Positions 7,627-24,683 of a stretch of 64,000 bases of DNA are shown here, in pieces. Position numbers and translations under genes: made by a program. Location: NCBI GenBank assembly GCA_003279005.1, contig QCBY01000003.1, positions 85,866 to 149,865 on the forward strand, read 5' to 3'. Position 1 is the stretch's first letter; every line of letters begins with the position of its first letter. Under the pieces are notes generated by a model. It did no database searches. It was given only the letters and a program-made list of their open reading frames with translations, and was not told the DNA's origin. The stretch comes from Prochlorococcus sp. AG-347-J22. Its GTDB lineage: Bacteria > Cyanobacteriota > Cyanobacteriia > PCC-6307 > Cyanobiaceae.

Positions 7627-7681
7627 TTGATTCCTAAGTAATTAAGATAATTTTAATAACATCCTTTAAATTAACAATCAA

Positions 7682-7717
7682 TTTGACCAATATTTGACCA
7701 CAAATAGAGAGGTCAAA
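7682..7717 (+). repeat. Arm-type repeat pair TTTGACCA plus inverted copy
   Basis: TTTGACCA occurs at 7682-7689 and 7693-7700 (11 bp apart), with the inverted GGTCAAA at 7711-7717. This is the same direct-direct-inverted layout as at the right end of other cassettes, 62 bp before a tRNA-Pro scar. No matching left end was found in the window, so its cassette is probably partly deleted. Confidence 0.7.
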
Positions 7718-7778: not shown

Positions 7779-7824
7779 TAGGAGCGAAAGGATTCGAACA
7801 TACGACCTAGTGCTCCCAAATCAC
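7779..7824 (-). repeat. tRNA-Pro 3'-half scar 2
   Basis: A 46-nt ungapped match to 20713-20758 with a handful of substitutions (for example aacatacga for aacctgcga and aaatcac for aaagcac). To its left is a shared flank: aataaaaaa, a decayed hairpin (caggctgggg..ccagtctg), acttggat and gagt. Homology ends at the anticodon stem on the right. Confidence 0.85.
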
Positions 7825-7912
7825 TTAATAGCCTTAGTGCAGCAGATGGTTTTCAAGCTATATCAAATTTTTTGCTTAGTTCTGCAAGGTTTGTCTTGAC
7901 AATTAAGTAATA

Positions 7913-7934
7913 TTTGTTCGCAATTTGTCCGCAA
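7913..7934 (+). repeat. Arm-type repeat pair, cassette A left
   Basis: Two adjacent 11-mers, TTTGTTCGCAA and TTTGTCCGCAA, differ at one base. They are the only notable structure in the 7825-8008 stretch besides a TGCAAGGTT motif shortly before them. Confidence 0.75.
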
Positions 7935-10936: not shown

Positions 10937-10969
10937 TGACATCAAACTGACATCAAGAGAGTGATGTCA
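10937..10969 (+). repeat. Arm-type repeat pair TGACATCAA plus inverted copy
   Basis: TGACATCAA at 10937-10945 and 10948-10956 (11 bp apart), then inverted TGATGTCA at 10962-10969, lie 60 bp before the scar at 11029. This is a typical right end, but no matching left end was found between 7.8 and 10.9 kb. Confidence 0.75.
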
Positions 10970-11028: not shown

Positions 11029-11074
11029 TAGGGGCGACAGGATCCGAACCTGCGATTTAGTGCTCCCAAAGCAC
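11029..11074 (-). repeat. tRNA-Pro 3'-half scar 3
   Basis: The 46 nt match 20713-20758 except for a few substitutions (gatccgaacc, gcgattta). The left flank has aataaaaaagacaggctagg, acttggatt and aagagt, shared with scars 2, 6 and 7; its hairpin is decayed. Confidence 0.9.
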
Positions 11075-11198
11075 AAGAGATGTTTTTTAAGAGATTTGTA
11101 AGAACTATTGCTATTATTGAATTTTTATTTGATCGTGGGGCATTCTTTAAACAGAAAAAGTGGCCTAGATATTGCTTGAAATAGTATGATATTAGCAA

Positions 11199-11222
11199 GG
11201 AGTGGCTCTCGGAGGGGCTCTT
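11199..11222 (+). repeat. Arm-type repeat pair, cassette B left
   Basis: Two 12-mers in tandem, GGAGTGGCTCTC and GGAGGGGCTCTT, differ at two positions. Nearly the same pair occurs at the left end of cassette D (13579-13602). A gatattgc motif lies about 25 bp before them. Apart from this the 10846-11379 gap has only the orphan TGACATCAA arms and scar 3. Confidence 0.85.
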
Positions 11223-11379
11223 CAAAGACCTAGTTTTGGGTCGATAATTTTGATTTTGATCAGAAGAAAATAATCAACAAATCTGCTTAAATCATTCCTT
11301 CTTTAGACAAACGGATATTTGATTTTTATTTGAAATACGTTTCTATGTAAATAGAGAAGTTTTTAAGGGATTGTCGATT

Positions 11380-11649
11380 ATGGAAATTCCAGACGAAATG
11401 TTGAAAGAAATTAGAGATAGTGCATACGATCAAGAGCTTGTATATAACTACATAAGAGAACTATTAAACAACGATAAACAAATTAAAGAAAATAATAATC
11501 TAGAGCTTATAGACAATTACTTATTAGACAAAGATATACAAGAACCTGTTGCTGAGATACAGATGGCAGCAGAGCTTATAGACAACTACTTATTAGATAA
11601 AAGATTTATTAGAGAGCTTGAAGATAGGGATGAATATGATGCTGCTTAA
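11380..11649 (+). CDS. Small acidic helical protein with duplicated decamer
   Basis: I choose the ATG at 11380, ten bases after AAGGGA, over a TTG at 11371; the product is 89 residues. It is highly charged and helical, with the decamer ELIDNYLLDK present twice (about residues 42-51 and 65-74), implying a tandem internal duplication. It has no membrane segment or known domain. Its 3' end overlaps the next gene by 20 bases, so the two are translated together as the sole cargo of cassette B. It could be a small DNA- or protein-binding factor, but nothing in the sequence proves that. Confidence 0.65.
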   Translation: MEIPDEMLKEIRDSAYDQELVYNYIRELLNNDKQIKENNNLELIDNYLLDKDIQEPVAEIQMAAELIDNYLLDKRFIRELEDRDEYDAA

Positions 11650-11791
11650 AAATAACTATAAAATGATGCAAGATCGAAAAACTATAGCTATTTCAGAGAT
11701 AGTAAAAATAATTGAAGAGTGCAGATATAATGATGAGCTTGCTGAGGGTTATAAGAGGGAGATATTAGACCAGGAGAAAGAATATGACTAG
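11630..11791 (+). CDS. Small helical protein, 53 aa
   Basis: It overlaps the upstream gene by 20 bases in another frame. The product begins MNMMLLKNNYKMMQDRKTIA and continues as a charged helix (SEIVKIIEECRYNDELAEGY). Several ATGs (11630, 11636, 11639) could start it. Charge pattern and helix content resemble its upstream partner. A pair of small co-translated proteins could be a two-component module such as an antitoxin pair, but there is no family evidence. Confidence 0.5.
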   Translation: MNMMLLKNNYKMMQDRKTIAISEIVKIIEECRYNDELAEGYKREILDQEKEYD

Positions 11792-11807
11792 AGGGGCAAA
11801 AGGAGCC

Positions 11808-11850
11808 CAATAGGTGCAAGTAATAGCAAGCTATAGCTCAGGAGGGGCTA
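11808..11850 (+). repeat. 43-bp repeat shared with cassette D right end
   Basis: The 43 bases from caataggtgc to ggaggggcta are identical to 14621-14663, and the preceding 18-20 bases (gaggggcaaaa.gagc) are nearly so. Both copies lead into the right arm repeats. Cassettes B and D also share left arms, so they were probably mobilised by the same recombinase type. Confidence 0.9.
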
Positions 11851-11862
11851 CTTGAGGGCAAA
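11841..11862 (+). repeat. Arm-type repeats, cassette B right
   Basis: ggaggggcta at 11841-11850 is followed by gagggcaaat about 12 bp on; the second copy appears to lack one G. It is the partner of the left pair at 11199-11222. Confidence 0.65.
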
Positions 11863-11912
11863 TCTTATATTAAGACGATTAGTGAAAATCTCAAACCTAC
11901 TGCAATAACTGG

Positions 11913-11958
11913 TCGGGGCGACAGGATTCGAACCTGCGACCTAGTGTTCCCGAAGCAC
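11913..11958 (-). repeat. tRNA-Pro 3'-half scar 4
   Basis: It matches 20713-20758 with two substitutions in the anticodon arm (tgttcccgaagcac). The left flank cctactgcaataactggtc resembles the flank of the complete tRNA (cttactgctataactgatc), and no terminator is present, so the two ends form a flank type distinct from scars 2, 3, 6 and 7. Confidence 0.92.
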
Positions 11959-12089
11959 TCGATCAACAAATTGCGACAGTACCCATGAGAACGAAGTGAG
12001 GCTATGAATTTAGTTTGAAATATTTGTTATCAAGATTAGTCTCAAGAATTGTCTTATATGCAGCAAAGTGTTGCAAGGTTAAGCATTTG

Positions 12090-12110
12090 ATCGCCCAGGG
12101 ATCGCCTGGC
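12090..12110 (+). repeat. Arm-type repeat pair, cassette C left
   Basis: ATCGCCCAGGG (12090-12100) and ATCGCCTGGC (12101-12110) start 11 bp apart, 132 bp from scar 4. cgcccagg and cctggc also form a small inverted repeat. The pair matches the right end at 13360. Confidence 0.8.
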
Positions 12111-12162
12111 TATGACCTAGTGTCATAAAAACAATAATAATTTTCACGAGCCAATCACTGTC

Positions 12163-12235
12163 AAATTGTGACCTTAAGTAATAAATAATGCAGGCTCAGC
12201 TTTTCTATGCAAGAAGTAAGAGCTTTAAATCAGTT
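12163..12235 (+). repeat. Decayed module flank without tRNA part
   Basis: gtcaaattgtgac..taataaa.aatgcaggct..g and tctatgcaagaagtaagag line up with the flank left of scar 2 (7712-7745) and scar 3. The tRNA portion that should follow is gone. The rest of the 11792-12351 gap holds the arms and scar 4, plus a CTTAACCC stretch at 12287-12294 that could be half a Pho-box-like site. Confidence 0.35.
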
Positions 12236-12351
12236 GCTAGATATATATCAAGAGTTATTGATTATATCAAAATAATTTGATGTATTCTTAACCCTTGAAT
12301 TTCGTCTTTTGTTTGATGCTATAAATGAATTGACTTTAATCAAAGTGGCTA

Positions 12352-13323
12352 ATGAGTATTTTAAAAAAATCTCTCATTTTATCTTCTGCAATTTCATTAA
12401 TACTTGCTCCATATGCGATGGCTTCAAAAAGATTGAGCGGAGCTGGTGCATCATTTCCTTCGAAAATTTATACCAGGTGGTTTTTTGACTTAGCTAAATC
12501 TGGAGGCCCTAGAGTTAATTATCAGGCAGTAGGTTCTGGATCTGGAAGAAAAGCTTTCATAGACGAAACTGTAAATTTTGGTGCATCAGATGATCCTATG
12601 AAAGATTCTGATATAGAGAAAGTTAAAAGAGGACTTGTGCAAATACCGATGGTAGGTGGAACAATTGCGTTTGGATATAACTATGAGTGCGACCTGAAAC
12701 TAACACAAGAGCAGGCTGTTCAGGTAGCGATGGGAATGATAAAAAATTGGAAGGAATTAGGATGTAAGTCAGGTAAATTAACTTGGGCGCATCGTTCTGA
12801 TGGATCAGGCACGACTAAAGCTTTTACAAATTCTATGGAGGCTTTCTCTAAAACCTGGAATTTAGGTGCTGGTAAATCTGTTAAATGGCCTTCGGGAGTT
12901 GGAGCAAAAGGTAATTCTGGTGTTGCAGGTGTTATTCAAAATACTCCGGGTGCAATTGGTTATGTAAACCAGTCATACATTAAAGGTAATGTTAAGGCTG
13001 CTGCACTTCAAAATCTTTCTGGTGAATTCGTTACTCCTAATACTGAATCAGGCGCGATAGCTTTGAATGGAATAAATCTTGATGAAAACTTGGCTGGTAA
13101 AAATCCGAATCCTACTGCTAAAGGAGCTTATCCAATAGCAACTTTGACTTGGATACTTGCTTATGAAAAAGGTAACGGAAGAAATACTAAGGCAATTCAA
13201 GATACATTCTATAAATTACTCAGTGATGAATATCAAGATAAAGCTCCTGCCTTAGGTTTCGTTCCCTTGAAAGGAGAAATTTTAAAAAAATCAATTGAGG
13301 CTGTGGGAAGAATAGGAAGGTAA
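12352..13323 (+). CDS. pstS: Phosphate ABC transporter substrate-binding protein PstS (accessory copy)
   Basis: A 323-residue periplasmic phosphate-binding protein. A signal peptide (about residues 1-24, ending PYAMA) precedes LSGAGASFPSKIYTRWF, the start of the mature PstS fold. Phosphate-contact loops are visible as GSGSGRKAFIDE, NFGASDDPM and HRSDGSGTTKAF, each as in known PstS/SphX proteins. It delivers phosphate to the PstCAB transporter, whose genes are not in the window. It is the sole cargo of cassette C, so it is an extra or movable PstS that could raise phosphate affinity or capacity. A CTTAACCC about 60 bp upstream may relate to phosphate control, but this is weak. Intact, no frameshift. 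Confidence 0.95.
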   Translation: MSILKKSLILSSAISLILAPYAMASKRLSGAGASFPSKIYTRWFFDLAKSGGPRVNYQAVGSGSGRKAFIDETVNFGASDDPMKDSDIEKVKRGLVQIPMVGGTIAFGYNYECDLKLTQEQAVQVAMGMIKNWKELGCKSGKLTWAHRSDGSGTTKAFTNSMEAFSKTWNLGAGKSVKWPSGVGAKGNSGVAGVIQNTPGAIGYVNQSYIKGNVKAAALQNLSGEFVTPNTESGAIALNGINLDENLAGKNPNPTAKGAYPIATLTWILAYEKGNGRNTKAIQDTFYKLLSDEYQDKAPALGFVPLKGEILKKSIEAVGRIGR

Positions 13324-13359
13324 TTTAGAACTAGTAAGCTATGCAAGGTATTGCAAATG

Positions 13360-13380
13360 ATCGCCCAGAGATCGCCCAGA
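13360..13380 (+). repeat. Arm-type repeat pair, cassette C right
   Basis: ATCGCCCAGAG at 13360-13370 and ATCGCCCAGA at 13371-13380 are perfect tandem copies, 28 bp from scar 5. ggtattgcaa lies directly before. They match the left pair at 12090. Confidence 0.9.
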
Positions 13381-13407
13381 GAGTATTTAAGAATCGTGAG
13401 AAGTCAA

Positions 13408-13453
13408 TCGGGGCGACAGGATTCGAACCTGCGACCTAGTGATCCCAAAGCAC
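13408..13453 (-). repeat. tRNA-Pro 3'-half scar 5
   Basis: Differs from 20713-20758 only in the loop flank (gtgatccc for gtgctccc). No terminator hairpin lies to its left. Confidence 0.93.
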
Positions 13454-13578
13454 TCGTGACTATTTTTATAATATCCTTGAGACTTCAGTAATAGCTAAAC
13501 AAGAAGATAGTTATTATAACCGATTTGAGACAGAGTATTGCAATTAGTAATCGCATGATATCAAATGATATTAACCAA

Positions 13579-13602
13579 GAGGGGCTCTTGGAGGGGCTCT
13601 TC
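13579..13602 (+). repeat. Arm-type repeat pair, cassette D left
   Basis: AGAGGGGCTCTT and GGAGGGGCTCTT in tandem, 12-bp spacing, about 126 bp from scar 5; gagtattgcaa lies about 45 bp earlier. Apart from the arms and scars, the 13324-13682 gap holds nothing recognisable. Confidence 0.88.
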
Positions 13603-13682
13603 AATTCATGAGTTTTTAATGAAATCTATTGAGGAAACTATCTAATGAATTCAAATATATAAATCTTTAGGAATTTAAAAGA

Positions 13683-14510
13683 TTAAATCTCTAATTTTGT
13701 AAATCCAACTAAATGAAAAGGATATTTTTTTTTATAGTATTTCCTTTGAGTATTAATAAAAGTTTTTTTAAAAAATAATTTGATGTAATAAATTATTTTC
13801 TTTACGAAAGATATTTTTGTTTTCAAAGGATACATCTCTGAAAATGAATCAAAAGAGATCTTTTTAAAACCAACTGATCTCAATAGGTTATTTAGACTCT
13901 CGGGAGTAAAAAAATGAATATGGGTTGGATTATCATAAGCATTTGTTAATTTTTCATCATAGTAACCAGGTGGTGTGGATAAAAATAAAAGACTATTTTT
14001 GTCCATTACTTTCTTCAAATTTAATAATATTTCTTTTGGGTTTTTTAAATGTTCAATAACTTCAATCATATAAATTATGTCAATCTTTTCTTCAATATTT
14101 TCTAAATTGGATACTGGTATAAGGTCCCATCGAGGGTAAAATTTTCTACATTTATGATTCGCTTCTAAACAGTAAATTTTTGCTTTGTTGCCTAAATAAG
14201 TTTTAAATGTTCGCGATATGTGAGCACAACCTGATCCAAAATCTAAAAATTTATACTTTTTCCTTCGAGAAATTTTCTTGAGAAAAAGTTTTAAAAGTCT
14301 TTTATTTCTCTCTCCGTATTCTTTCAGATTTTGATCAGATTCAATTGTCAAATCGTTATTTCTTTTATGAATGCCTTGTTCCTTTTTGGGCTCAAGTAAA
14401 AAATAGTGCTTACATTTTTTATTTTTACAATTATAAATTTTATAATTATTTTTTGATATGAATGAAAATTTCCCCTCATCAAAACAAATTGGACAAAATA
14501 TCTTTTTCAT
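13683..14510 (-). CDS. Class I SAM-dependent methyltransferase with N-terminal zinc ribbon
   Basis: The 275-residue protein starts with a likely zinc-binding ribbon (C6, C9, C28, C33), then a class I methyltransferase domain. The SAM motif is FLDFGSGCAHI (88-98), CLEAN ends the second strand, and IDIIYMIEVIEHLKNPKEI (143-161) is motif II. THIHFFTPESLNNLLRSVGF follows near 195-215, typical of Methyltransf_23-type enzymes. Such proteins often modify sugars in surface-glycan pathways; the substrate is unknown. The C-terminus is Lys-rich. It is the only gene of cassette D and is transcribed opposite to the flanking pstS and barrel genes. AGAGATTTC upstream of ATG 14510 is a weak ribosome-binding site. 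Confidence 0.85.
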   Translation of the reverse strand: MKKIFCPICFDEGKFSFISKNNYKIYNCKNKKCKHYFLLEPKKEQGIHKRNNDLTIESDQNLKEYGERNKRLLKLFLKKISRRKKYKFLDFGSGCAHISRTFKTYLGNKAKIYCLEANHKCRKFYPRWDLIPVSNLENIEEKIDIIYMIEVIEHLKNPKEILLNLKKVMDKNSLLFLSTPPGYYDEKLTNAYDNPTHIHFFTPESLNNLLRSVGFKKISFDSFSEMYPLKTKISFVKKIIYYIKLFFKKTFINTQRKYYKKKYPFHLVGFTKLEI

Positions 14511-14620
14511 GAAATCTCTTTATCACGTGAAATATACCATCTTATTAAAAAAAAAATCAATAAATTGCATCCCTCTATTTTTTATCAATTTAAATAAACA
14601 AGAGGGGGCAAAAAGAGCAC

Positions 14621-14663
14621 CAATAGGTGCAAGTAATAGCAAGCTATAGCTCAGGAGGGGCTA
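14621..14663 (+). repeat. 43-bp repeat shared with cassette B right end
   Basis: Identical over 43 bases to 11808-11850; includes a small agcaagctatagct inverted repeat and runs into the arm repeats. Confidence 0.9.
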
Positions 14664-14676
14664 TTGGAGGGGCAAA
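14654..14676 (+). repeat. Arm-type repeat pair, cassette D right
   Basis: ggaggggctatt and ggaggggcaaa, 12 bp apart, lie 72 bp before scar 6. They are partners of the pair at 13579-13602. Confidence 0.85.
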
Positions 14677-14697
14677 TCTAAATATGAGACTACTTAC

Positions 14698-14728
14698 AAA
14701 ATAAAAAGACAGCTTGGGAATGCTGTCT
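14698..14728 (-). terminator. Rho-independent terminator beside scar 6, tRNA orientation
   Basis: Read on the minus strand: GACAGCATTCCCAAGCTGTC followed by TTTTTATTTT. It lies 20 bp beyond the tRNA 3' end of scar 6. It would terminate a tRNA-Pro transcript, so this module appears to carry the tRNA's own terminator. Confidence 0.8.
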
Positions 14729-14747
14729 ATGACTTGGTTTTTAAGAG

Positions 14748-14793
14748 TCGGGGCGACAGGATTCGAACCTGCGACCTAGTGCTCCCAAAGCAC
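14748..14793 (-). repeat. tRNA-Pro 3'-half scar 6, perfect copy
   Basis: All 46 bases are identical to 20713-20758, from discriminator to the anticodon stem; similarity stops there (cacttaaca versus cacccgcgc). Confidence 0.95.
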
Positions 14794-14882
14794 TTAACAA
14801 CCCTAGTAAGGCACTATGTCTACAGACCATGACTAAATAGTTGCGGGGTATTGCTTAATTTGACATGACCAATAAGGATCTA

Positions 14883-14902
14883 TTTGTTGGCGATTTGTTG
14901 GC
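14883..14902 (+). repeat. Arm-type repeat pair, cassette E left
   Basis: TTTGTTGGC at 14883-14891 and 14894-14902, 90 bp from scar 6; gggtattgc lies about 35 bp earlier. The 14511-15019 gap holds the shared 43-bp repeat, arms, terminator and scar 6. Confidence 0.92.
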
Positions 14903-15019
14903 AATCTGAAAGTAATTCTCAGTTAGGGTTTATATAAATATAATCAGTAAACAATACTTTATTGACAGACCCAAAGTATCCGTGAAGATAAAAAAATATG
15001 TGAAGAAGAAAAAAGTAAA

Positions 15020-16882
15020 TTGAAGATAGTTGATTTTGAAAAATATTTAAAGAGTCTATTTTTAATTTGCTTTATTCCAACTGGTATTGGATTAGCAGAT
15101 ACTTTTAATGGAACGGGCATTTCAAATGAACCAGAATTAAGTGGTGGAACTGTTATTGATTTCTCAAATGGAGCCGGAACATCTGGAACCTACACAGAAG
15201 GTAATGTAACTTTTTCAAGCGAAGATGGTGGTGCAATAAGAATCGAGGCACACTACAATTACAATACCTCTGGTCATTATTTACAAAATAATTGTCAAGA
15301 AACTGGATACTGCAATGCCTCTCAAATAAGTGATTCATTAAAGTTTACATTTTCTAGTCCAGTCTCGGCTTTTGGTTTTAATTGGGGAGCTTCAAATGCA
15401 TACTGGGATTTAAAAGCTTACGATTCCAGTAACGCCCTAAAAGAAACTTATAGATTACCGATTACTGGTGGTAGTAATAATGGTTATTATGCTGGTATTT
15501 CAAGCGACTCAGAGGCTATTAGTTACGCGACATTAATTTATGCGGGCCTTGGTGATGGTAGTGACTGGATTTTTATTGATAATTTTACTTATTTAGGGGG
15601 TGCAAGTGATGATGGAGATGCAACATTTACCATTACTGGATCAACTTATGCAGGAAAAGTATTAACAGCATCTCTCTCTAATTCTGACCCAGATGGCGAT
15701 GGAACTTTTAGTTACCAATGGCAATCATCAACAGATGGAACTACATGGACATCTATCTCAGGAGCAACAAGTTCTACTTACACACTTACAGAATCAGAGG
15801 AAGGAAAATATATTCGAGTATCTATAAGTTACACAGATGGCGAAAGTTATTCTGAGAGCATATTCGTAGCAATTCAAGGATTAATTCCTCAACTGCATAC
15901 AGAATGGGTGCAACCATATGCAGCGATGCAAAATCTTGGCTTAAAATCAATTTATAATAATAGAGATTTAGTTTTAGCAAAAGCAGGAAAATGCAATAAC
16001 TATGGTTGGGTAATTGGAGATTCTGATTATTGCGCTTATACCAATGCCAATAATTCAATTTCTAATGTAGAAGGAGATAGCACGAAGGGTTCTTACGAAA
16101 CAACTTCTTTTAATTCCTCTCTAAATTTAGAGAAAACTATAAATGCAAAATGGAAAGCAGGAATTGCCTATGGTGTTGGATCTTCTAATTTAAATGGTTA
16201 TGATTTCTCAAATACAACAGCAAGTTTAAGTTCTACCAATACACATTATTCAATTTATGAAGTAAAGAAAGTAAGCGATAAATTTACCCTAAAAGGGATT
16301 ATTGGAGGATCTGACTTTGACTACAAAGGAGAAAGAAATTATTCAACTACATCAGCAACATCTTCTTACGATAGCGATGGATATACAGCAGAAATAAATG
16401 GTAGTTGGGATATTAAAAAGACTATAAAAAATACGAAAACCCCAATCCGTTTACAACCATCTTTTGGGGTTGCATATGCAGCTCACACTCAAGATGGATT
16501 TAGTGAATCTGGCAGCGGAGATTTAATAACAATAGATCCTAATCAAGCAGAATCTCTACTATTTAAAACTGGAATTGCAGTAGACAAACAAATCCTTATG
16601 GAAGGAGGAAAATGGTTATTGGTCCCATCAATAGCACTTAATTATGAAGTTGATGCTTATGCTTATTCTGGTCATAGAGGACTAAAAGGATCTTTAACAG
16701 AAAGTAGTACAGCGTCTACAAGAGTATCTGCAAAGAACATGGGAGAACAAACTGGTTCTGTAAAAGTGGGAGCAGATTTTGTAGTAACAAAAGATTTAAT
16801 GTTTAATTTAAATGCAAAATATGGCTTGGCAGATGGAGGAGATGAGCAGTCCTATGGCGGCGGTTTCAGATTCGTATTCTAA
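15020..16882 (+). CDS. Secreted outer-membrane barrel protein with Ig-like domain
   Basis: The 620-residue protein begins at TTG; the nearest upstream ATG (14997) meets a stop at once. It has a signal peptide (1-26, ending TGIGLA) and a jelly-roll-like domain (27-195) with ...WIFIDNFTYLGG. An Ig-like repeat (about 198-285) has YAGKVLTASLSNSDPDGDGT, YQW.SSTDGTTW and YTLTESEEGKYIRV. A C-terminal barrel (about 290-620) with alternating strands ends in GGGFRFVF, an aromatic terminus typical of outer-membrane insertion. The layout suggests an autotransporter-like or surface-display protein with an extracellular binding domain. It could mediate adhesion or receptor masking; that is inference. Sole cargo of cassette E. 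Confidence 0.75.
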   Translation: MKIVDFEKYLKSLFLICFIPTGIGLADTFNGTGISNEPELSGGTVIDFSNGAGTSGTYTEGNVTFSSEDGGAIRIEAHYNYNTSGHYLQNNCQETGYCNASQISDSLKFTFSSPVSAFGFNWGASNAYWDLKAYDSSNALKETYRLPITGGSNNGYYAGISSDSEAISYATLIYAGLGDGSDWIFIDNFTYLGGASDDGDATFTITGSTYAGKVLTASLSNSDPDGDGTFSYQWQSSTDGTTWTSISGATSSTYTLTESEEGKYIRVSISYTDGESYSESIFVAIQGLIPQLHTEWVQPYAAMQNLGLKSIYNNRDLVLAKAGKCNNYGWVIGDSDYCAYTNANNSISNVEGDSTKGSYETTSFNSSLNLEKTINAKWKAGIAYGVGSSNLNGYDFSNTTASLSSTNTHYSIYEVKKVSDKFTLKGIIGGSDFDYKGERNYSTTSATSSYDSDGYTAEINGSWDIKKTIKNTKTPIRLQPSFGVAYAAHTQDGFSESGSGDLITIDPNQAESLLFKTGIAVDKQILMEGGKWLLVPSIALNYEVDAYAYSGHRGLKGSLTESSTASTRVSAKNMGEQTGSVKVGADFVVTKDLMFNLNAKYGLADGGDEQSYGGGFRFVF

Positions 16883-16926
16883 AAAAAATGATCCGCAATA
16901 TCCTGCATGATTCTGAAAACTACTTA

Positions 16927-16962
16927 TTTGTTGGCTATTTGTTGGCTGCTATGAGCCAACAA
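16927..16962 (+). repeat. Arm-type repeat array, cassette E right
   Basis: TTTGTTGGC at 16927-16935 and 16938-16946, inverted GCCAACAA at 16955-16962. It lies 71 bp before scar 7. Confidence 0.93.
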
Positions 16963-16970
16963 GTAAATGT

Positions 16971-17008
16971 AATAAAAAAGCGAGTCTGAGTAACTCGCTA
17001 GTATGACT
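16971..17008 (-). terminator. Rho-independent terminator beside scar 7, tRNA orientation
   Basis: On the minus strand AGCGAGT and ACTCGCT pair around a TACTCAG-type loop and are followed by TTTTTTATT. Placement matches the terminator beside scar 6, although the stem sequence differs. Confidence 0.8.
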
Positions 17009-17032
17009 TGGATTTGATTGAGTCGGGGCGAC

Positions 17033-17078
17033 AGGATTCGAACCTGCGACCTAGTGCTCCCAAAGCATCCGCTGTATT
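17033..17078 (-). repeat. tRNA-Pro 3'-half scar 7
   Basis: Identical to the tRNA through 17067, then agcatccgc, where the t variant is also found in the 5'-half remnant at 21702. Homology ends a few bases later. Confidence 0.93.
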
Positions 17079-17159
17079 GAAGCTATAACTGAGACTTATG
17101 TTGCCATCAGTACATTTAGAGAAATAAGTGTGGTCTAATTCGGACTATCTAACTTTGAT

Positions 17160-17179
17160 TTGCGTGAGTTTTGCGTGAG
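17160..17179 (+). repeat. Arm-type repeat pair, cassette F left
   Basis: TTGCGTGAG at 17160-17168 and 17171-17179, 93 bp from the scar crossover. The remainder of 16883-17354 is the cassette E right end, scar 7 and AT-rich DNA. Confidence 0.92.
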
Positions 17180-17354
17180 TTTTCATTTGACAGCCGATTT
17201 AACATAGAGGGATAAAACCCTCTTCTTTAATGGATAAAAGATTTATTGCTGAAAAGATAATGACCCTAATTATTTCTTTAATTGGTTAATAAACTCAAAA
17301 ATCCTATTTCAAATATAATAAAATACCAATAGCTTGCTATTACTTTAGTAATCT

Positions 17355-18161
17355 TTATCTAAGAGTTTTATCAGAGAATTCATTTCTATTTGATTTAGGT
17401 TTAAGTAAATAATTTCTACAACCTTCGTCCACTAATGCTGTAATAATGCCTCCAAGTGGTTCCCATTCTGATAGTTGGGAATCTTCTTTACTTAGATATT
17501 TTGTCGCCATTTCCTTTTTATCGCAGTCGAAAATAGCAAGTTGAATAGATGTATTTACTCCTTCAGCCTGACCTGTTTGACCTCCAATGAAAGTCGTTTC
17601 AGGAGATTCAGTTTTGCAATTAATTCTCCCCGAATAATTTGTGGTGCCTCTATTAGAATCTCCAAAAAAGTAGGTTGATCCAAAACCAGATTGCCAACAT
17701 TTTGTTTTTGAATCTCCAATAGTTACTTGCTGTGGGGCTCGGTCAGGTATGTACTTTCTGTAAGACCTAATAATGAAAGTTGTTTCCAAAAAACGTCTAA
17801 ATTTATTATCTACTTCTAATTGTTTGAGACTTGGATTAATATAAAATGTTCCTTGTAATTCAGGGATCTCCTTATACAACCATCCATTTATTTTAGGTTC
17901 ACCCAAAAGATCATTTCCTTTCCCTGCGATACAAAAATTGTTAATTGGATCTTCATTCTTTTCACAATAATCTTCATTCCGATTAAAGACCCCATTAGTT
18001 TTTGAACTAAATATTTTTTTATTACTATTAATACAACCTTTATAGTCTTTCGCTTTTAAACACTTTTTATGAAATTCAAAAACATCACTCGTATAAAGAG
18101 GTAAAGTAAAAATTTTTGAGAAACTTAGAAAGATTATTAATTTTATAAAATATTTATTCAT
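17355..18161 (-). CDS. Secreted hypothetical protein with C..A.DY.GC motif (268 aa)
   Basis: The start ATG at 18161 overlaps the stop of the upstream gene (TGATG), which favours it over an in-frame ATG at 18179. A signal peptide (about residues 1-19) is followed by CLKAKDYKGC, shared with its neighbour (CLQASDYSGC). The middle has PDRAPQQVTIGDSKTKCW and TFIGGQTGQAEG, the end LVDEGCRNYLLKPK. Eight or so cysteines suggest disulfides in the periplasm or outside. No known catalytic domain. It likely works with the upstream protein, with which it is translationally coupled. Confidence 0.75.
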   Translation of the reverse strand: MNKYFIKLIIFLSFSKIFTLPLYTSDVFEFHKKCLKAKDYKGCINSNKKIFSSKTNGVFNRNEDYCEKNEDPINNFCIAGKGNDLLGEPKINGWLYKEIPELQGTFYINPSLKQLEVDNKFRRFLETTFIIRSYRKYIPDRAPQQVTIGDSKTKCWQSGFGSTYFFGDSNRGTTNYSGRINCKTESPETTFIGGQTGQAEGVNTSIQLAIFDCDKKEMATKYLSKEDSQLSEWEPLGGIITALVDEGCRNYLLKPKSNRNEFSDKTLR

Positions 18162-18958
18162 CAATATAAAGAAGGACAATAATCAACTAGTGAGTATTGA
18201 ATCTGTTTATCTAAATAAGAACTTCCTTTAAAATTAGTCCCCCATTTTTTATTCATCACTTTAGTTATTTTGTCCCATTTTTTTTCTAATTCTGCATAAT
18301 GTTCTTTTTCTCCAGATAAGGCAGATTTTTTACCCTTCATATTTCTATCATAGGCTTCATGACAAGTAATACAAGCCAATGTTTTCACAGAATCTAAAAG
18401 AAGACTATTAGATGGCTTTGGAGGTCTAATCTCACAAATAGGAGGTATTAGGTCTTCTTTCTTTACTGCAGAAATTTTTTTTGATAATTCTTCCTTGTGC
18501 ATATAATAAACAACTTCATTGAAAGGACGTGTACGCATCTTTGAACAATCATTACCATATTCATTCAACAAATAAGTAATCCCTTTTTTTACTAAATTTG
18601 CTTCCATATAACTTGTGGGTTGACCTCTTTTCTGAAATTCAGATTTCATATTTTTGTAATCTTTACTAGAAATTTTTTTATTAGGAGATATACATTTTTT
18701 ATAAGCCATCTCCACGGCAACAATTGCTTGATCTAATTGATAATCTGCAAAAATCTTAAGGTCTGGTGAGAATGTATATTTATTATTATTTTTCTTTTGA
18801 TTTTTAATTTCAGACTGTTTATTTTCTTTTGAATAAGCCTTAACACATCCACTATAGTCAGAAGCTTGTAAGCACATTTTGTGTATTTTGTTGCTTACCT
18901 CTGATTTTGCCGGATATGAACAAAATAAAAGCGTAAGTATAAAAATTATCTTTTTCAT
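18161..18958 (-). CDS. Secreted hypothetical protein with CxxCH motif (265 aa)
   Basis: I choose ATG 18958, which begins a clean signal peptide (MKKIIFILTLLFCSYPAKS); the longer form from 18991 adds a charged extension. CLQASDYSGC follows at about 29-38. A C-I-T-C-H sequence (196-200) matches the covalent haem c attachment motif CxxCH, in a helical context (EAYDRNMKGKKSALSG). One such motif could mark a small c-type cytochrome-like site, but other haem-ligand features are unclear. The neighbouring gene overlaps by one base, so the two form an operon in cassette F. Confidence 0.72.
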   Translation of the reverse strand: MKKIIFILTLLFCSYPAKSEVSNKIHKMCLQASDYSGCVKAYSKENKQSEIKNQKKNNNKYTFSPDLKIFADYQLDQAIVAVEMAYKKCISPNKKISSKDYKNMKSEFQKRGQPTSYMEANLVKKGITYLLNEYGNDCSKMRTRPFNEVVYYMHKEELSKKISAVKKEDLIPPICEIRPPKPSNSLLLDSVKTLACITCHEAYDRNMKGKKSALSGEKEHYAELEKKWDKITKVMNKKWGTNFKGSSYLDKQIQYSLVDYCPSLY

Positions 18959-19085
18959 TAATTTTTCTAGTGAATCTACCTTAATATTCAATTTAATATT
19001 TTTTCTTTAGAAATACAAAAAGATCTTTACGAACTAATTTTTCTATTAATAGGCTATTAAAATTCAAGCAAAATCCCTATCATTA

Positions 19086-19423
19086 ATGAAAATAAAAAAC
19101 ATATCTTTTTCATCTAGTATTTTTTTTTTAATTTTATCTTTATCCCCTCTATTATTGCTGGTGTCCCAAAAGACAATGCAGATCATTTGTTATTTGGAGG
19201 AGGGTTTTCTTTAGGAACAACTTTATGCGAATTAACTGTTTCTAAAGATATAACTATTAATAGAGCATTGGAGTTTCGAGATAGTTACATGAGTGAATGG
19301 AATAGGCCTGAAGCTATTAGAGATTATCAATTGGTTGGGACAGGTTTGAACTTAGGTATAACAATGCTGGTAGAAAATAATATTTCTAAATATTCATCAT
19401 GTAAAGAAATAATTTTGGAATAA
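19086..19423 (+). pseudogene. Small secreted protein gene frameshifted in a T10 run
   Basis: An ATG at 19086 opens a signal-peptide-like start (MKIKNISFSSSIFF) that enters a run of ten T (19120-19129). After the run another frame continues with AGVPKDNADHLLFGGGFSLG and reaches SSCKEIILE at 19423. One additional T would join them into about 112 residues. The later part (FGGGFSLGTTLCEL, EFRDSYMSEW) resembles short secreted proteins. Either a sequencing error, a recent mutation, or slippage-based switching; the sequence alone cannot decide. Confidence 0.6.
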
Positions 19424-19433
19424 ATTTTTAGTT

Positions 19434-20357
19434 TCAAGCAGCAAGATTTCTATATCTAGTGAATTGCGGTTCAAACAGTAATTTGACAGTTCCCACAGGA
19501 CCATTCCTATGTTTGGTAACTATCAATTCTGCTATACCTCTATCTTCAGTTTCTGGATGATAATATTCATCTCGATAAAGCATAATCACTGCATCTGCAT
19601 GACTTTCTAAACTCTCGGTTTCTCTTAAATCGCATAACATTGGTCTTTTATTTACTCTGCTTTCCACATCTTTAGACACTTGGGACATAAGCACCACAGG
19701 TACATCTAATGCTTTTGCCATTTCTTTAAGATCAAGGACAATTTTAGATAACTCTTTTTCTCTAGACTCTTTATTTGGACCATCCATCATTTGTATATAG
19801 TCAACTATTACCAATCCAAGTTTTCCTAGTCCTACCTTTTCTTTTACTTTCCTACTTTTTGAGAGAATCTCTTTAACTTTGATAGAGCCCTTATCACATA
19901 TAAAAATGGGGACCTCTGCAATGTCTTCTATCTCTTTACCAATTAAACCCCACTCATCTTGCTCAATTCTTCCAGTTCTCAGTCTTCCTGATTCAATACC
20001 AAGTCCCATAGAGAGAAATCTATAACTCATTTGTTCTCTGCTTTGTTCCAAACTGAAATAACAAACAGGTAATTTGTTTGTCTTAGCAACATTTTGTGCA
20101 AGATTCATGGCAAAAGAAGTTTTACCCATTGAAGGTCTTCCAGCAAAAACAACTAATGAACCCCTTTGTAGACCTTGAGTCATAGCATCTAAGTCATAAA
20201 AACTTACAGGCACCCCTGTTGAATATCTGCCTATTGAACTTTTTTCTATGTTTTCATAAGTTGTTGGCATTATGCTCGCTAAATTTTTCATATCATCTGA
20301 ATCCTTTCTTATACGAATGCCTTTGAGTTTTAGTTGCTTTTCTTTTGAATTACTCAT
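19434..20357 (-). CDS. DnaB-like helicase C-terminal (RecA-fold) domain protein
   Basis: A 307-residue protein equivalent to the C-terminal ATPase half of replicative helicase DnaB; the N-terminal collar domain (about 150 residues) is absent. Walker A is GRPSMGKTS (73-81), Walker B LVIVDYIQM (182-190); SLEQSREQMSYRFLS, SQVSKDVESRVNKRP, DLRETESLESHADAVIML and YRDEYYHPETEDR follow in the DnaB order. All expected ATPase and DNA-loop motifs are present, so it is probably active. Without the N-domain it may not load like DnaB; phage and plasmid helicases or recombinase-mediator ATPases show similar reduction. It sits in cassette F, 360 bp from the complete tRNA-Pro, and may help the element replicate or excise. 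Confidence 0.88.
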   Translation of the reverse strand: MSNSKEKQLKLKGIRIRKDSDDMKNLASIMPTTYENIEKSSIGRYSTGVPVSFYDLDAMTQGLQRGSLVVFAGRPSMGKTSFAMNLAQNVAKTNKLPVCYFSLEQSREQMSYRFLSMGLGIESGRLRTGRIEQDEWGLIGKEIEDIAEVPIFICDKGSIKVKEILSKSRKVKEKVGLGKLGLVIVDYIQMMDGPNKESREKELSKIVLDLKEMAKALDVPVVLMSQVSKDVESRVNKRPMLCDLRETESLESHADAVIMLYRDEYYHPETEDRGIAELIVTKHRNGPVGTVKLLFEPQFTRYRNLAA

Positions 20358-20641
20358 ATTAAATTTTCGATGGAGACTTATATAAGCAAACTCAGAAAAG
20401 AATGCAAATTAAGTTTCTTTAAGTTAATTATTAATCCTGTGAAATTATTTTCCTTTAAATAAAACTATTGGAGAAGTTGAAGAACTTGATGGAAATATAA
20501 GAGTTGGTCCTGTTCATACCCTTAATTTATATTCCTCTTGAATATTGGGCTTTTGTTCAACTTATATTTTGGATAATGTTGCCATTAATTCAATTCTTTT
20601 AAAGTGATTTGTCCAGACTGGAAATATGTGAAAATATAAAT
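20358..20641. other. Intergenic stretch with a possible gene remnant
   Basis: No intact gene. Near 20470-20535 one frame reads GEVEELDGNIRVGPVHT before a stop, and nearby frames encode short hydrophobic pieces (IPLEYWAFVQLIFW), suggesting a decayed membrane-protein gene. The right part holds the cassette F arm repeats. Confidence 0.3.
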
Positions 20642-20677
20642 TTGCGTGAGTTTTGCGTGAAGCAATAATTTGCGTGA
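20642..20677 (+). repeat. Arm-type repeat array, cassette F right
   Basis: TTGCGTGA at 20642, 20653 and 20670, all in the same direction; the first two are 11 bp apart. The third is direct and not inverted as at other right ends. It lies 36 bp before the tRNA 3' end. Confidence 0.92.
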
Positions 20678-20712
20678 AATATGTATTAGCTGAGACTTAC
20701 TGCTATAACTGA

Positions 20713-20786
20713 TCGGGGCGACAGGATTCGAACCTGCGACCTAGTGCTCCCAAAGCACCCGCGCTACCAAGCTGCGCCACGCCCCG
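20713..20786 (-). tRNA. tRNA-Pro(UGG), complete; integration hotspot
   Basis: The minus strand gives a full cloverleaf: acceptor stem CGGGGCG/CGCCCCG, D-loop with AGCTTGGTAGC, anticodon arm GTGCTTTGGGAGCAC (anticodon TGG), and T-arm CGCAGGTTCGAATCCTGTG-like. Discriminator is A; CCA is not encoded. The 3' half is repeated in at least six clear scars to the left and the 5' half in one to the right, so the crossover lies in the anticodon stem-loop, an inverted repeat (GTGCT/AGCAC) around CCCAA. No clear terminator follows on the minus strand. It may be the only tRNA reading CCN Pro codons in this small genome, which I cannot check here. Confidence 0.97.
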
Positions 20787-20881
20787 CTTATAAGATCTTA
20801 ATTCATAACATGCATCTGTTAAAGACCAAAATTTAAAAATATTGATAAAAAAACGATTTTTTAAGGAAAATTTGCTAATCC

Positions 20882-20919
20882 TCGCTAGATTGTCGCTAAT
20901 GTTTTTCTTCAATTTAGCG
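20882..20919 (+). repeat. Arm-type repeat array, cassette G left
   Basis: TCGCTAG at 20882, TCGCTAATG at 20893 (11 bp apart), inverted TTAGCG at 20914-20919. Confidence 0.8.
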
Positions 20920-20960
20920 GGAAGTTTGATGACACCCGCTTTACTTAAAAATATTGAAAA

Positions 20961-21341
20961 ATGAAACGCTTACTACTTGTACCATTGTTATTAGGTTTTA
21001 TTCCCACAGCTGATGCAGGTATTTATTTTCACCCCTTCTATCAAAATGGTGTAGAAATTCGATGTTCTGACGATGAGCCAAGACATTCGATTTCTTTTAA
21101 AAATGGTAGGTATATGCTCTTTGAAGATGATGGTGATGAAAAATACAAATTTCCAAAAACTTTTTTATGGCCAGAAAAAACTGACAAGCGATATACATAC
21201 TTTCCAAGTACAGCCGGTACGTTCTGCAGTTCAAGAGAACTTACTAAGAAAGAGAGAGAATTTTACATAAAGAAAGCAAAAGACGTTTGTTACTCAGGTA
21301 GCTTGGAAACAAGGATTAAACGTTGCTATGGTTGGAACTAA
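20961..21341 (+). CDS. Small secreted protein, 126 aa
   Basis: ATG at 20961 opens MKRLLLVPLLLGFIPTADA, a clear signal peptide. The mature part is charged and Tyr/Phe-rich with Cys residues (IRCSDDEPRHSISFKNGRYM, AGTFCSSRELTKKERE, CYSGSLETRIKRCYGWN). No known domain; the ELTKKEREFYIKKAK stretch forms a helix. The stop overlaps the next ATG (TAATG), so the two genes are coupled. Small MKRLL-type secreted proteins are recurrent in Prochlorococcus islands; function unknown. Confidence 0.75.
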   Translation: MKRLLLVPLLLGFIPTADAGIYFHPFYQNGVEIRCSDDEPRHSISFKNGRYMLFEDDGDEKYKFPKTFLWPEKTDKRYTYFPSTAGTFCSSRELTKKEREFYIKKAKDVCYSGSLETRIKRCYGWN

Positions 21342-21577
21342 TGAAACGCTTACTTCCTCAACTAATAGCTTCTATCGCTTTACCTCCTGCTGTTAATGCT
21401 GAGAATTGTTGGATGATAATTACTTATGGACTTGGAGGAACTAGGGCAGGGGCATTAGAAAAAATAGAAATGCTGAGTGCAGACTTTTGCGAAAAAGAAG
21501 GAAGACGTTAGGAAAATAGTCCAACGCAGGGATTAGGTAGTAAAACTAGAAGATTTCATTGTGTTATTGGGAAATAA
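21341..21577 (+). pseudogene. Small secreted protein gene with in-frame amber codon
   Basis: ATG 21341 overlaps the preceding stop and gives MKRLLPQLIASIALPPAVNA, a signal peptide, then ENCWMIITYGLGG...ALEKIEMLSADFCEKEGRR and a TAG at 21509-21511. Reading continues in frame for ENSPTQGLGSKTRRFHCVIG up to TAA at 21575-21577. The R.FHCVIGK ending looks like the normal C-terminus of such secreted proteins as I remember them, so the TAG probably truncates a 78-residue protein. The 56-residue version could still be made. Confidence 0.55.
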
Positions 21578-21619
21578 AAATTCGGCTAATATGAAATCAC
21601 CTGTGATACTCAATAAATC

Positions 21620-21636
21620 TCGCTAATGCTCGCTAA
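21620..21636 (+). repeat. Arm-type repeat pair, cassette G right
   Basis: TCGCTAA at 21620-21626 and 21630-21636; spacing here is 10 bp rather than 11. A related tcggctaat lies at 21581. Confidence 0.75.
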
Positions 21637-21701
21637 ACAGGTTGTAATAAATTATGTAATTTCTAGTCTTTGCAATGCTTTTGGTTTGGATATTCGTCAG
21701 A

Positions 21702-21740
21702 TCCCAAAGCATCCGCGCTACCAAGCTGTGCCATGCCTCG
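21702..21740 (-). repeat. tRNA-Pro 5'-half remnant
   Basis: tcccaaagcatccgcgctaccaagctgtgccatgcctcg matches the anticodon loop, D-arm and acceptor 5' strand of the complete tRNA with four substitutions, all C to T as written. The 3' half is missing. It is followed by a copy of the tRNA upstream region to about 21790. The rest of the 21578-21947 gap is AT-rich. Confidence 0.9.
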
Positions 21741-21947
21741 GTTATTTGATCTTATTTCATAACAGACACCAATAATAGACCAATTTACTAGATACTCTAT
21801 AAAAATCACTTTCAGCCTAAAAAATGTTTTTCATCTAGATTTTTTCAAAAAAAAAAAAAATAGAGATCTGGATGTATATTTACATTTTCGATAAGGTCAA
21901 TATGAATAATTAAATTGGGTTTGAATTTTCCCTTAAATATGTTGCAC

Positions 21948-23318: not shown

Positions 23319-23474
23319 TTCAAAATCTTTCTCGTTCGGACAAAATTTCTAAATCAAATTAATGTATAGATAATAAAAGTGGCACAAAATTTTTAATTGT
23401 ATAAGTTTATACTTGCAGTTAATCTTTTTTTAAACTAAAGTGAAGCGTACTTATAATTTCGTGTGAGGAAATTT

Positions 23475-24644
23475 ATGAAGCTTTTTAAAAGCTTGCTTGT
23501 AGCTCCTGCGACATTAGGTCTTTTAGCTCCTTTGTCAGTTACAGCAAACGAAATGAATTTTACTGATGTTTCTGGTTACACTGAAACAGCTGAAGTTGAA
23601 AGCATTTCTGATTTCGATGCTGCTAAGGAACTAGCAGTTACTAACAGTCGTGTTGATGGCCTTGAAGCTAGATTTAATGATTTTGAAGCTGGTGCTTTCT
23701 CAGAAACAACAACAGCAGCTTTTTCAGCTGATTTTGCAGTTGGTTCTGAAGACGGTACAGATGCAGGTGACTCTGTTCAAGCAACTTACGGTTTTCAAAT
23801 TGATCTAAACACTAGCTTTACTGGTGAAGATTCTTTAGATATCTCTTTAGATGCTGGTAATGGTGGTGGTGGTTTAGCTGAGTTAGACCAAAACTCTACT
23901 TCAGATGCTGTACAAGTTGATGGTGTTTCTTACACTTTCCCACTTGCTGGTGCAACAGTTTTTGTTGGTGATAACACTGATGGAAGCGCAGTTTACAACA
24001 CAGCTTGTGTTTACGGTGGACCTTCTAACAACTTAGATGATTGTGGTAACGGTACTTCATCTTTGGGTAGTGGATCAGGAACTGCAGCAGGAGCAAGCTA
24101 TGAATTTGAAAACGGATTTACAGTTGCTGTTGGTTACACAGGTGCTGGTAGTTCAACTTCTGGATTAATGACTACTGAAGGTCTTGATCAAATTGGTACT
24201 CAGTTCTCTTATGCTACAGATTCATATGGTGCCTCTCTTTCTCTTGCGAAAGTAGACGTAACTACTGATGACGAAAGAAAGTACTATGGTCTAAATGGTT
24301 ACTTTGTTCCATCTGATGTTGGCCCTGTTCCATCAATAAGTGTTGGTTACGAAATAAGTGAAGCTCAAGGCCTTGCAGATACAACTCAATGGTTCGTTGG
24401 TCTTCAGTGGGATGAGGCTGGACCAGGAACATTCGGTGTTGCTGCAGGATCCGTAGGAGCATCTGCTGGAAATGAGGATTCATCTAGTCCAAAATACGAT
24501 CCAGACTTAGTGATGTACGAAGCTTTCTATGACTACCCTGTAAATGATGGAATGACTATCACTCCATTAATTTATTCTAAGGAAACAGGTGTCTTCAGTG
24601 ATGATAAAACTGGATACATGATTAAGACATCATTCAGTTTCTAA
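23475..24644 (+). CDS. Short SomA-like outer-membrane porin, copy 1
   Basis: From ATG 23475, after TGAGGAA, the 389-residue product has a signal peptide (about 1-25), a short linker with RVDGLEARFNDFEAGAFSET as in SomA-type porins, and a beta-rich barrel rich in Gly, Asp and Ser ending TGYMIKTSFSF, an aromatic C-terminus. It lacks the full SLH domain and is shorter than classic SomA. It probably forms a diffusion channel for small solutes in the outer membrane. Bases from 23697 to the end, plus 90 bp beyond, are repeated in copy 2. The leader gtgtgaggaa and a terminator hairpin are shared by all three copies. Confidence 0.85.
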   Translation: MKLFKSLLVAPATLGLLAPLSVTANEMNFTDVSGYTETAEVESISDFDAAKELAVTNSRVDGLEARFNDFEAGAFSETTTAAFSADFAVGSEDGTDAGDSVQATYGFQIDLNTSFTGEDSLDISLDAGNGGGGLAELDQNSTSDAVQVDGVSYTFPLAGATVFVGDNTDGSAVYNTACVYGGPSNNLDDCGNGTSSLGSGSGTAAGASYEFENGFTVAVGYTGAGSSTSGLMTTEGLDQIGTQFSYATDSYGASLSLAKVDVTTDDERKYYGLNGYFVPSDVGPVPSISVGYEISEAQGLADTTQWFVGLQWDEAGPGTFGVAAGSVGASAGNEDSSSPKYDPDLVMYEAFYDYPVNDGMTITPLIYSKETGVFSDDKTGYMIKTSFSF

Positions 24645-24683
24645 GTTTATTAACTTAATTTAGAAAATCTTACACACACTAAA

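Follow-up and report, generated by a model that had tools for sequence, protein, structure and literature searches.

Tandem repeat pairs at the ends of integrase-free cassettes beside a Prochlorococcus tRNA-Pro gene as predicted arm-type sites for integrases acting in trans

We analysed a stretch of 64,000 nucleotides (hereafter the window) from Prochlorococcus sp. AG-347-J22 (contig QCBY01000003.1), in which an array of short gene cassettes, designated A to G, lies at an intact tRNA-Pro(TGG) gene. Copies of the 3' half of this gene, 46 bp in length, all lie to its left and bound cassettes A to F (Table 1). The mismatches in these scar cores mostly increase with distance from the intact tRNA, and core alignment gave a doubtful further copy at 1769 with 10 mismatches. 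We infer that the crossover position is in or beside the anticodon loop, at ~20750. Lambda provides the classical example of an arm-binding tyrosine integrase with arm-type sites in attP, and the core found here, which is identical to part of a tRNA gene and recurs in a far-end scar, is of the kind seen in attachment systems of such integrases. Cassette G lies on the opposite side of the tRNA and is bounded by a second copy of the 5' half and upstream sequence (20748-20829 vs. 21702-21783; 82% identity); since it has the 5' half rather than the 3' half, it seems to restore tRNA-Pro from its other side. A similar arrangement appears in elements whose 462-aa integrases adjoin a complete tRNA-Pro (L040, L144, L145, and L212; L numbers denote the sequence stretches used for comparison). 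The genome of the window (1.41 Mb, 86% complete) has a single match to the tyrosine-recombinase family PF00589, on another contig.

A preliminary description of this DNA had proposed that each cassette bears matching repeat pairs at both ends, which differ from those of other cassettes. All pairs named for cassettes B to G were found where they had been placed, with some copies imperfect, but three pairs (at 7681, 7912, and 10937) had been missed. In cassettes C to F both ends bear exact tandem repeats of 7-14 bp with a spacing of 11-12 bp, apart from the changed bases given below; in B and G the copies at one end contain mismatches, and the pairs at the two ends of A differ. B and D are both of the GGAGGGGCT type. 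Specifically, the unit of cassette E, TTTGTTGGC, is exact at 14883/14894 and 16927/16938, and that of cassette F, TTGCGTGAG, recurs at 20642/20653 with its second copy ending in A. The copies in cassette D are 12 bp apart (13578/13590 and 14654/14666), with one changed base in one copy of each pair, and at the left end of cassette C the second copy, at 12101, agrees only over ATCGCC. Tandem matches of 7 bp or more with a period of 9-14 and two or more G/C number 37 across the window. A hand count places 12 of them inside the 15 cassette ends of 220 bp (~3.3 kb), where ~1.4 would be predicted from the other 25; the match at 11075 (period 14), which is among the 12, is probably noise. A second repeat layer occurs beside these pairs, ~120 bp inside the right-end core (L061, L062; window 12072 and 13342); in relatives it takes the form of period-10 GCAAGGT, CAAAGTA, and TCCAAAG repeats, which could be excisionase sites.

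Table 1. Integration target, scar cores, cassette-end repeat pairs, and cargo genes in the window (offsets are relative to the crossover).
Feature	Coordinates	Strand	Evidence or remark
Intact tRNA-Pro(TGG), integration target	20713..20786	-	ARAGORN, Rfam, core alignment
Old scar between an older cassette and cassette A; core of the tRNA-Pro 3' half with 6 mismatches	7779..7824	.	core alignment
Scar core A/B, 4 mismatches	11029..11074	.	core alignment
Scar core B/C, 2 mismatches	11913..11958	.	core alignment
Scar core C/D, 1 mismatch	13408..13453	.	core alignment
Scar core D/E, 0 mismatches	14748..14793	.	core alignment
Scar core E/F, 1 mismatch	17023..17068	.	core alignment
Outer limit of cassette G, tRNA-Pro 5' half with upstream sequence	21701..21783	.	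82% identical to 20748-20829
Older cassette (ends at core 7779), right-end pair, ATTTGACCA x2, period 11	7681..7700	+	
A left-end pair, TTTGTTCGC/TTTGTCCGC, period 11, +89	7912..7932	+	
A right-end pair, TGACATCAA x2, period 11	10937..10956	+	
B left-end pair, GGAGTGGCT/GGAGGGGCT, period 12, copies 11199/11211, one mismatch	11199..11221	+	
B right-end pair, GGAGGGGCT and clearly imperfect second copy, below tandem-listing threshold	11841..11861	+	read from sequence
C left-end pair, GATCGCC x2, period 11, +132	12089..12106	+	
C right-end pair, GATCGCCCAGA x2, period 11, -51; exact at 13360/13371	13359..13382	+	
D left-end pair, GAGGGGCTCTT x2, period 12, +127	13578..13601	+	
D right-end pair, GGAGGGGC x2, period 12, -96	14653..14674	+	
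E left-end pair, ATTTGTTGGC x2, period 11, +90	14882..14902	+	
E right-end pair, TATTTGTTGGC x2, period 11, -100	16925..16947	+	
F left-end pair, TTTGCGTGAG x2, period 11, +92; unit TTGCGTGAG at 17160/17171	17159..17183	+	
F right end, TTTGCGTGA x2, period 11, and third copy ~20669	20641..20677	+	third copy read from sequence
G left-end pair, TCGCTAG/TCGCTAA, period 11	20882..20899	+	
G right-end pair, CTCGCTAA x2, period 10; TCGCTAA at 21620	21619..21636	+	
B cargo, 92-aa open reading frame	11371..11649	+	no Pfam family at E <=0.01
C cargo, periplasmic phosphate-binding-like protein	12352..13323	+	Pfam PBP_like_2, E 1.4e-31
D cargo, methyltransferase	13683..14510	-	Methyltransf_23, E 2.3e-17
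E cargo, autotransporter beta-domain protein	15020..16882	+	Pfam, E 4.1e-24
F cargo, DnaB C-terminal helicase domain protein	19434..20357	-	DnaB_C, E 2.1e-88
F cargo, two open reading frames, 274 and 276 aa	17355..18991	-	no Pfam family at E <=0.01

Comparison across the genus confirmed that the end repeats are real and general. A tRNA-Pro core with at most three mismatches was present in 224 of 266 genus genomes, and regions from 21 of these were analysed together with the window. Tandem pairs occurred in 104 of 142 left ends and 111 of 142 right ends vs. 8 of 91 internal windows, so that in this preset test the ends were far denser in pairs than cassette interiors. The mostly 11-bp spacing noticed earlier was borne out (150 of 284 ends vs. 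5 of 182 internal windows), with lesser peaks at periods 12 (53 vs. 7) and 10 (35 vs. 3). In 70 of the 142 cassettes the same 7-mer stood in tandem at both ends, compared with a mean of 3.6 and a maximum of 9 when ends were re-paired 1000 times. We then enlarged the set to cassettes 250-20,000 bp long and delimited by cores of no more than nine mismatches, drawn from the window, L037-L072, and L133-L212 (L451-L470 excluded), and kept 211 of 238 after merging near-duplicates. Pairs were present at both ends of 138 of these non-redundant cassettes, which places repeated sites on both sides of the core as in arm-binding systems, and the two ends matched in 117 (permuted mean 21.4, maximum 36 in 2000 permutations). 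Matching was found in 101 of 119 integrase-less and 16 of 19 integrase-bearing cassettes. It was also more frequent in cassettes with fresh cores (both with at most one mismatch; 97/132) than in those with an old core (at least three mismatches; 12/63), as expected for sites that decay after their last use.

Single linkage of exact units over 326 ends gave 45 groups, 31 of them in at least two cassettes; this count is rough because the method lumps some distinct units. Tens of units thus share one tRNA-Pro core, in agreement with the earlier suggestion of several arm specificities using one crossover site. The window's own pairs recur in the genus, and recurrence had also been set as a test beforehand: the E, F, and C pairs were detected in 24, 34, and 50 of the 266 genus genomes, respectively, and the same patterns read backwards in none of the 266. 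Viral contigs also yielded the patterns (E, 14 stretches; F, 14; C, at least 120, of which 80 were listed), which we read as chance matches since none of the 108 listed stretches (L213-L320) had a tRNA-Pro core (up to 12 mismatches) or a family integrase (E <=1e-5). When anchored on their motifs, the pairs lie at fixed distances from the crossover, the main positions being left +91 and right -95 to -98 or -74 for TTTG-type pairs, +128 and -95 or -73 for AGCTACCCC-type pairs, +134 and -95 or -49 for TCGCT-type pairs, +134 and -49 for TCGCCC-type pairs, and +105 and -50 for TTTTCCC-type pairs. On the right, alternative positions are about 22-24 bp apart, which in our reading approximates two turns of the helix.

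Proteins that could recognize such pairs are encoded beside the same core. In L049, a 9-kb cassette with AGCTACCCC pairs at both ends encodes a 454-aa protein that starts beside the core, has no Pfam match, and gives a weak integrase match in PHROGs. Relatives, Xer-like ones included, occur in 236 of 266 genus genomes, and 85 family members were gathered from fetched genus regions. Judging from their residues, these proteins are divergent tyrosine integrases: R255, K281, R361, H384, and Y393 are invariant in 30 of 30 aligned members, and we assign them as the putative catalytic residues. At the HxxR motif, this family has Tyr358 where a His is usual, and PF00589 was matched at E <=5 by 20 of the 30. 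A tRNA-Pro core (up to 12 mismatches) lies near the start of the open frame in 71 of 85 integrases, followed past the core by a tandem pair in 54 of these. Among 167 non-redundant integrase-less cassettes with such pairs (armed cassettes), 85 carry an integrase-adjacent unit (at least 8 exact bp) compared with 0-1 for letter-shuffled units (10 trials), and in 64 of the 85 the unit lies within 4 bp of the integrase's left offset. Searches of phage records gave no match to the E-type integrase, and three protein names containing Cyanobium in the protein search hint at relatives outside the genus. The 9-kb element of L049 also encodes, alongside the large integrase, a second, mini tyrosine recombinase of 190-220 aa (L049:4620-5258; relatives in L074, L076, L077, L096, L097, L099, and L101) with a strong PF00589 match, which seems too short to include an arm-binding domain.

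Some of these integrases adjoin the repeat pairs of the window itself. The E pair stands beside integrases in L133 (Prochlorococcus AG-355-N18) and L149 (AG-355-J04), and the L133 element, 7739 bp long, has this pair at +90/-99 compared with +90/-100 in cassette E. The outer 115 bp of cassette E are 89% (left) and 81% (right) identical to the L133 element, but the next 115 bp inward are only 34% and 26% identical, i.e., similarity is absent just inside the repeats. Against 28 other integrase elements, the left end of cassette E had a median identity of 40% and a maximum of 66%. The B/D pair adjoins an integrase in L135, where the left 155 bp of cassette D are 85% identical to the integrase-side end and the next 155 bp are 50% identical. 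The 7.7- and 9-kb integrase elements also encode excisionase-like helix-turn-helix proteins (weak matches) and AAA/DnaB-like ATPases, and the 7.7-kb element of L133 has a primase/helicase-like gene as well, with some of these assignments coming from weak matches.

The integrase sequences support the view that repeat identity follows the N-terminal domain better than the catalytic domain, the AGACTGCA class excepted. The L150 and L133 integrases agree fully (100%) beyond residue 240 and at 34% over their first 70 residues, and both copies of the L150 pair (TTTGTCGGC) differ from the L133 pair (TTTGTTGGC) at the same base. At the DNA level, the two are ~90% identical from core to pair, diverge over the ~210 bp of the N-terminal domain, and are nearly identical in the remaining gene. 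L162 and L161 point in the same direction (99% in the catalytic half and 46% in the N-terminus, different pairs). Conversely, L150 and L158 have a common pair with 86% N-terminal identity and a catalytic half of only 67%, and L134 and L137 (46% in the catalytic half and 83% in the N-terminus) have the same unit. We compared 57 of the 85 integrases, namely those with a usable left pair (three pairs were located without a core), which left 51 after near-identical ones were removed; 37 outside the AGACTGCA class were used to count unit sharing. Among these, a unit is shared by none of the 626 integrase pairs with N-terminal identity below 60% and by 12 of the 17 with at least 80%, compared with only 6 of the 19 whose catalytic identity is at least 90%. 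A first, cruder measure of arm similarity made all four protein segments significant in Mantel tests (0/300 permutations each), but it was inflated by shared spacers and was replaced, and the permutations belong to that first measure only. With the better unit measure, the correlation was 0.45 for the N-terminus, 0.41 and 0.42 for the middle segments, and 0.35 for the catalytic part, and the partial correlations of these two outer segments were 0.35 and 0.19, respectively, the N-terminus being the higher. In a wider comparison, which drew on the 120 listed of 437 proteins found and was restricted to those of at least 360 residues, 46% of the 243 protein pairs that were at least 90% identical from residue 140 on were less than 60% identical in the first 62 residues. 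A separate integrase (L142:1390-2781) has an N-terminus 61-79% identical to that of the AGC(T/G)CCCC class and a catalytic half 15-18% identical, with a common core and offset.

We propose that integrase-free cassettes are probably moved in trans by the integrase that their repeats specify, each pair being the likely binding site of one integrase. That the pairs are arm-type sites which record the recombinase that moved the cassette had been suggested in the preliminary description, and it gains support from the same repeat families and offsets beside integrases as well as from N-terminal covariation. In this reading, a cassette is cargo flanked by short ends, and each of the two ends combines a tRNA-Pro crossover core with a tandem pair set a fixed distance away. 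The N-terminal domain of the integrase would bind the arm pair, and its core-binding and catalytic domains would act on the shared core, such that the integrase of a resident or incoming satellite-like element could excise and insert integrase-free cassettes carrying its arms. Because an internal scar joins one cassette's right arm to the left arm of the following cassette, the arms recognized by an integrase would be present only at its own two ends, and it would lift out a single cassette rather than the whole array. We hypothesize that different arms in this way protect neighbouring cassettes from excision. More tentatively, and with somewhat greater doubt than confidence, the arms may amount to an address code in which one shared crossover is combined with tens of mutually exclusive arms, each read by a swappable N-terminal domain of ~70 residues. 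Replacing the domain together with both arms would then create a new address, similar to the target-recognition domains of restriction enzymes, and the cell would keep a random-access library of integrase-free genes at one tRNA.

An alternative is that the cassettes are shrunken autonomous elements that once had their own integrase, so that the arms are relics and nothing acts in trans. The homology of cassette ends to the ends of integrase elements would be consistent with such an origin, as would the integrase remnants (E <=1e-4) in 2 of 167 armed integrase-less cassettes (L058 and L069). However, at the same threshold remnants were found in none of the 108 with fresh cores, and one 3.2-kb integrase-less cassette, bounded on either side by an exact core, has copies in three other genomes at 99.5-99.8% identity. 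Its neighbours differ in length and repeats (both flanks were visible in two genomes, one flank in two others). Moreover, the cargo of cassette C, which we take to be a phosphate-binding-like (PstS-type) protein, is 92.5% identical over 1143 bp to a cargo in L072 that lies between other repeat families, which indicates that a cargo is separable from its ends. Each mini-element may have had its interior cleanly replaced when it arose, but we regard the shrunken-element account as rather unlikely.

Cassettes could also be exchanged when whole islands recombine homologously or when island DNA is taken up, with site-specific recombination having built the array but no longer being the mover. Shared cores and ends supply homology for such exchange, 16 of 87 cassettes having both pairs show unlike ones, and the other arms around the phosphate-binding-like cargo in L072 fit as well. 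Exchange between islands accounts poorly, though, for the same 3.2-kb cassette with exact cores among different neighbours, and for matched arms being far commoner with fresh than with old cores; it appears improbable as the main route. A further suggestion, that the pairs are recognized by some other protein than the integrase (an excisionase, a transcription regulator, or a nucleoid protein), could draw on the extra period-10 repeats near the ends (GCAAGGT ~120 bp inside the right end), which may be such sites, and on the different behaviour of the AGACTGCA class. We consider it very improbable given that the pairs vary with the integrase N-terminal domain, with both copies changing at the same base, and that they stand at fixed offsets as direct repeats to either side of the core, in keeping with known arm-type sites as far as the portion of PMC3203893 covered here describes them. 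Chance or low-complexity matches in AT-rich DNA, for which the 25 other tandem matches of at least 7 bp in the window might be cited, can be dismissed on the counts for ends vs. internal windows (104 and 111 of 142 vs. 8 of 91) and the reversed patterns (0/266).

Nonetheless, several results weigh against mobilisation in trans by arm-specific integrases, or against the N-terminus as the determinant of the repeat. The expectation that the same repeats would stand beside integrase genes held for E and for B/D but not for C and F, whose integrases were found neither in the collected family nor in 20 fetched regions around such pairs; the sole family match there was a 111-aa fragment on L457 with no adjoining core. 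The left end of cassette B is only 59% like the L135 end despite their common pair, and 82 of the 167 armed cassettes match no integrase unit in this set. Where N-terminal identity reaches 80% or more, 5 of the 17 integrase pairs still differ in their unit. The AGACTGCA class comprises 17 of the 57 integrases with a pair (at ~+61, period 10) and has one unit across N-termini less than 60% identical in 58 integrase pairs, so that 58 of 1202 integrase pairs below this identity share a unit when the class is included; a matching right-end pair was absent in all four of its elements with a next core. The N-terminal domain had no Pfam match and no convincing sequence match in PDB (best E 0.1). The unlike end pairs mentioned above belong here as well. 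Integrases and cassettes share ancestry, and the pair counts are not phylogenetically independent. Finally, arrays show no significant shortage of cassettes repeating the same arm (3 vs. 6.5 +/- 2.5; 318 of 3000 shuffles as low), and self-avoidance of arms is therefore not claimed.

Cis-mobilizable elements (CIMEs) are segments that have no integrase and whose flanking attachment sites are related to those of an autonomous element, and the present cassettes resemble them in lacking an integrase (remnants in 2/167) and in the relatedness of the E and D ends to L133 and L135. To the best of our knowledge, CIMEs have not been described as combining many orthogonal arm specificities within a single array. 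In integrons, one integrase serves all attC sites. Integrons and clusters of attC sites lacking integron-integrases (CALINs) likewise involve arrays of integrase-less cassettes used in trans, according to the excerpt of PMC11389934 covered here, but our cassettes have the 3' half of a tRNA as their shared site, and the repeat pairs, in which specificity seems to reside, lie outside it. The excisionase-like, AAA/DnaB-like, and primase/helicase-like genes recall phage satellites, including phage-inducible chromosomal islands (PICI), PICI-like elements (PLE), phage-inducible chromosomal minimalist islands (PICMI), and virion-encapsidated integrative mobile elements (VEIME), a likeness in gene content. 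Tycheposons and cryptic elements of the same genus are also tRNA-anchored and tyrosine-recombinase-linked and carry cargo (excerpts of PMC10872708, PMC10187409, and PMC11389934); tRNA and integrase elements are found here too, and the present elements may be related to tycheposons, the comparison being made via secondary accounts only.

Small-scale precedents exist for flanking repeats, for arm differences at one core, and for concentration of changes in the N-terminus (PMC3203893 and PMC8074189, each covered in part). Mycobacteriophages L5, Giles, and those of cluster K have pairs of ~11-bp arm repeats on both sides of a tRNA/tmRNA core, in direct orientation in L5 and Giles; cluster K1 phages with one core show an arm-base difference together with N-terminal substitutions, and Pixie and Tweety have a common core and different arms (PMC3203893). 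Each of these phages has its own integrase and few arm variants are reported in that portion of the paper, whereas here there are tens of units and most bearers are integrase-less. In Oenococcus, the IntF and IntB-F prophages share a 63-bp tRNA-Leu core, and changes are concentrated in the 66-residue N-terminus, which its authors read as binding of different arm-repeat sets (PMC8074189). Those proteins are 92% identical with scattered changes, unlike the whole-domain difference here (34% beside 100%) in many families, and section 3.6.1 of that account does not include integrase-free arrays such as the Prochlorococcus cassettes. An arm-binding domain also marks mobile-element recombinases, according to the covered part of PMC8138268. 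In the literature covered, which excludes Hackl et al. 2023 (Cell) and most subscription journals, we found no description of a single core used with tens of arm specificities, of arm changes that accompany the swap of a whole domain, or of arm-labelled integrase-free arrays.

The pairs would offer a readable label for the recombinase that moved each short cassette in a very abundant ocean phototroph, including cassettes with an apparent phosphate-uptake gene, and would make trans-mobilisation of integrase-free islands directly testable. The integrases could also serve as a natural domain-swap set for studying how N-terminal domains read arm DNA, with a possible use as orthogonal recombinases sharing one target. 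Integrase relatives also occur beside tRNA-Thr(GGT) (L190, L192, L193, and L194), where tandem repeats (period 10 or 12) likewise separate the integrase gene from the tRNA, and the arrangement may therefore not be limited to tRNA-Pro. Elsewhere in the window, at 23463-27368, three adjacent open reading frames (393, 384, and 425 aa) have long near-identical translated stretches in common.

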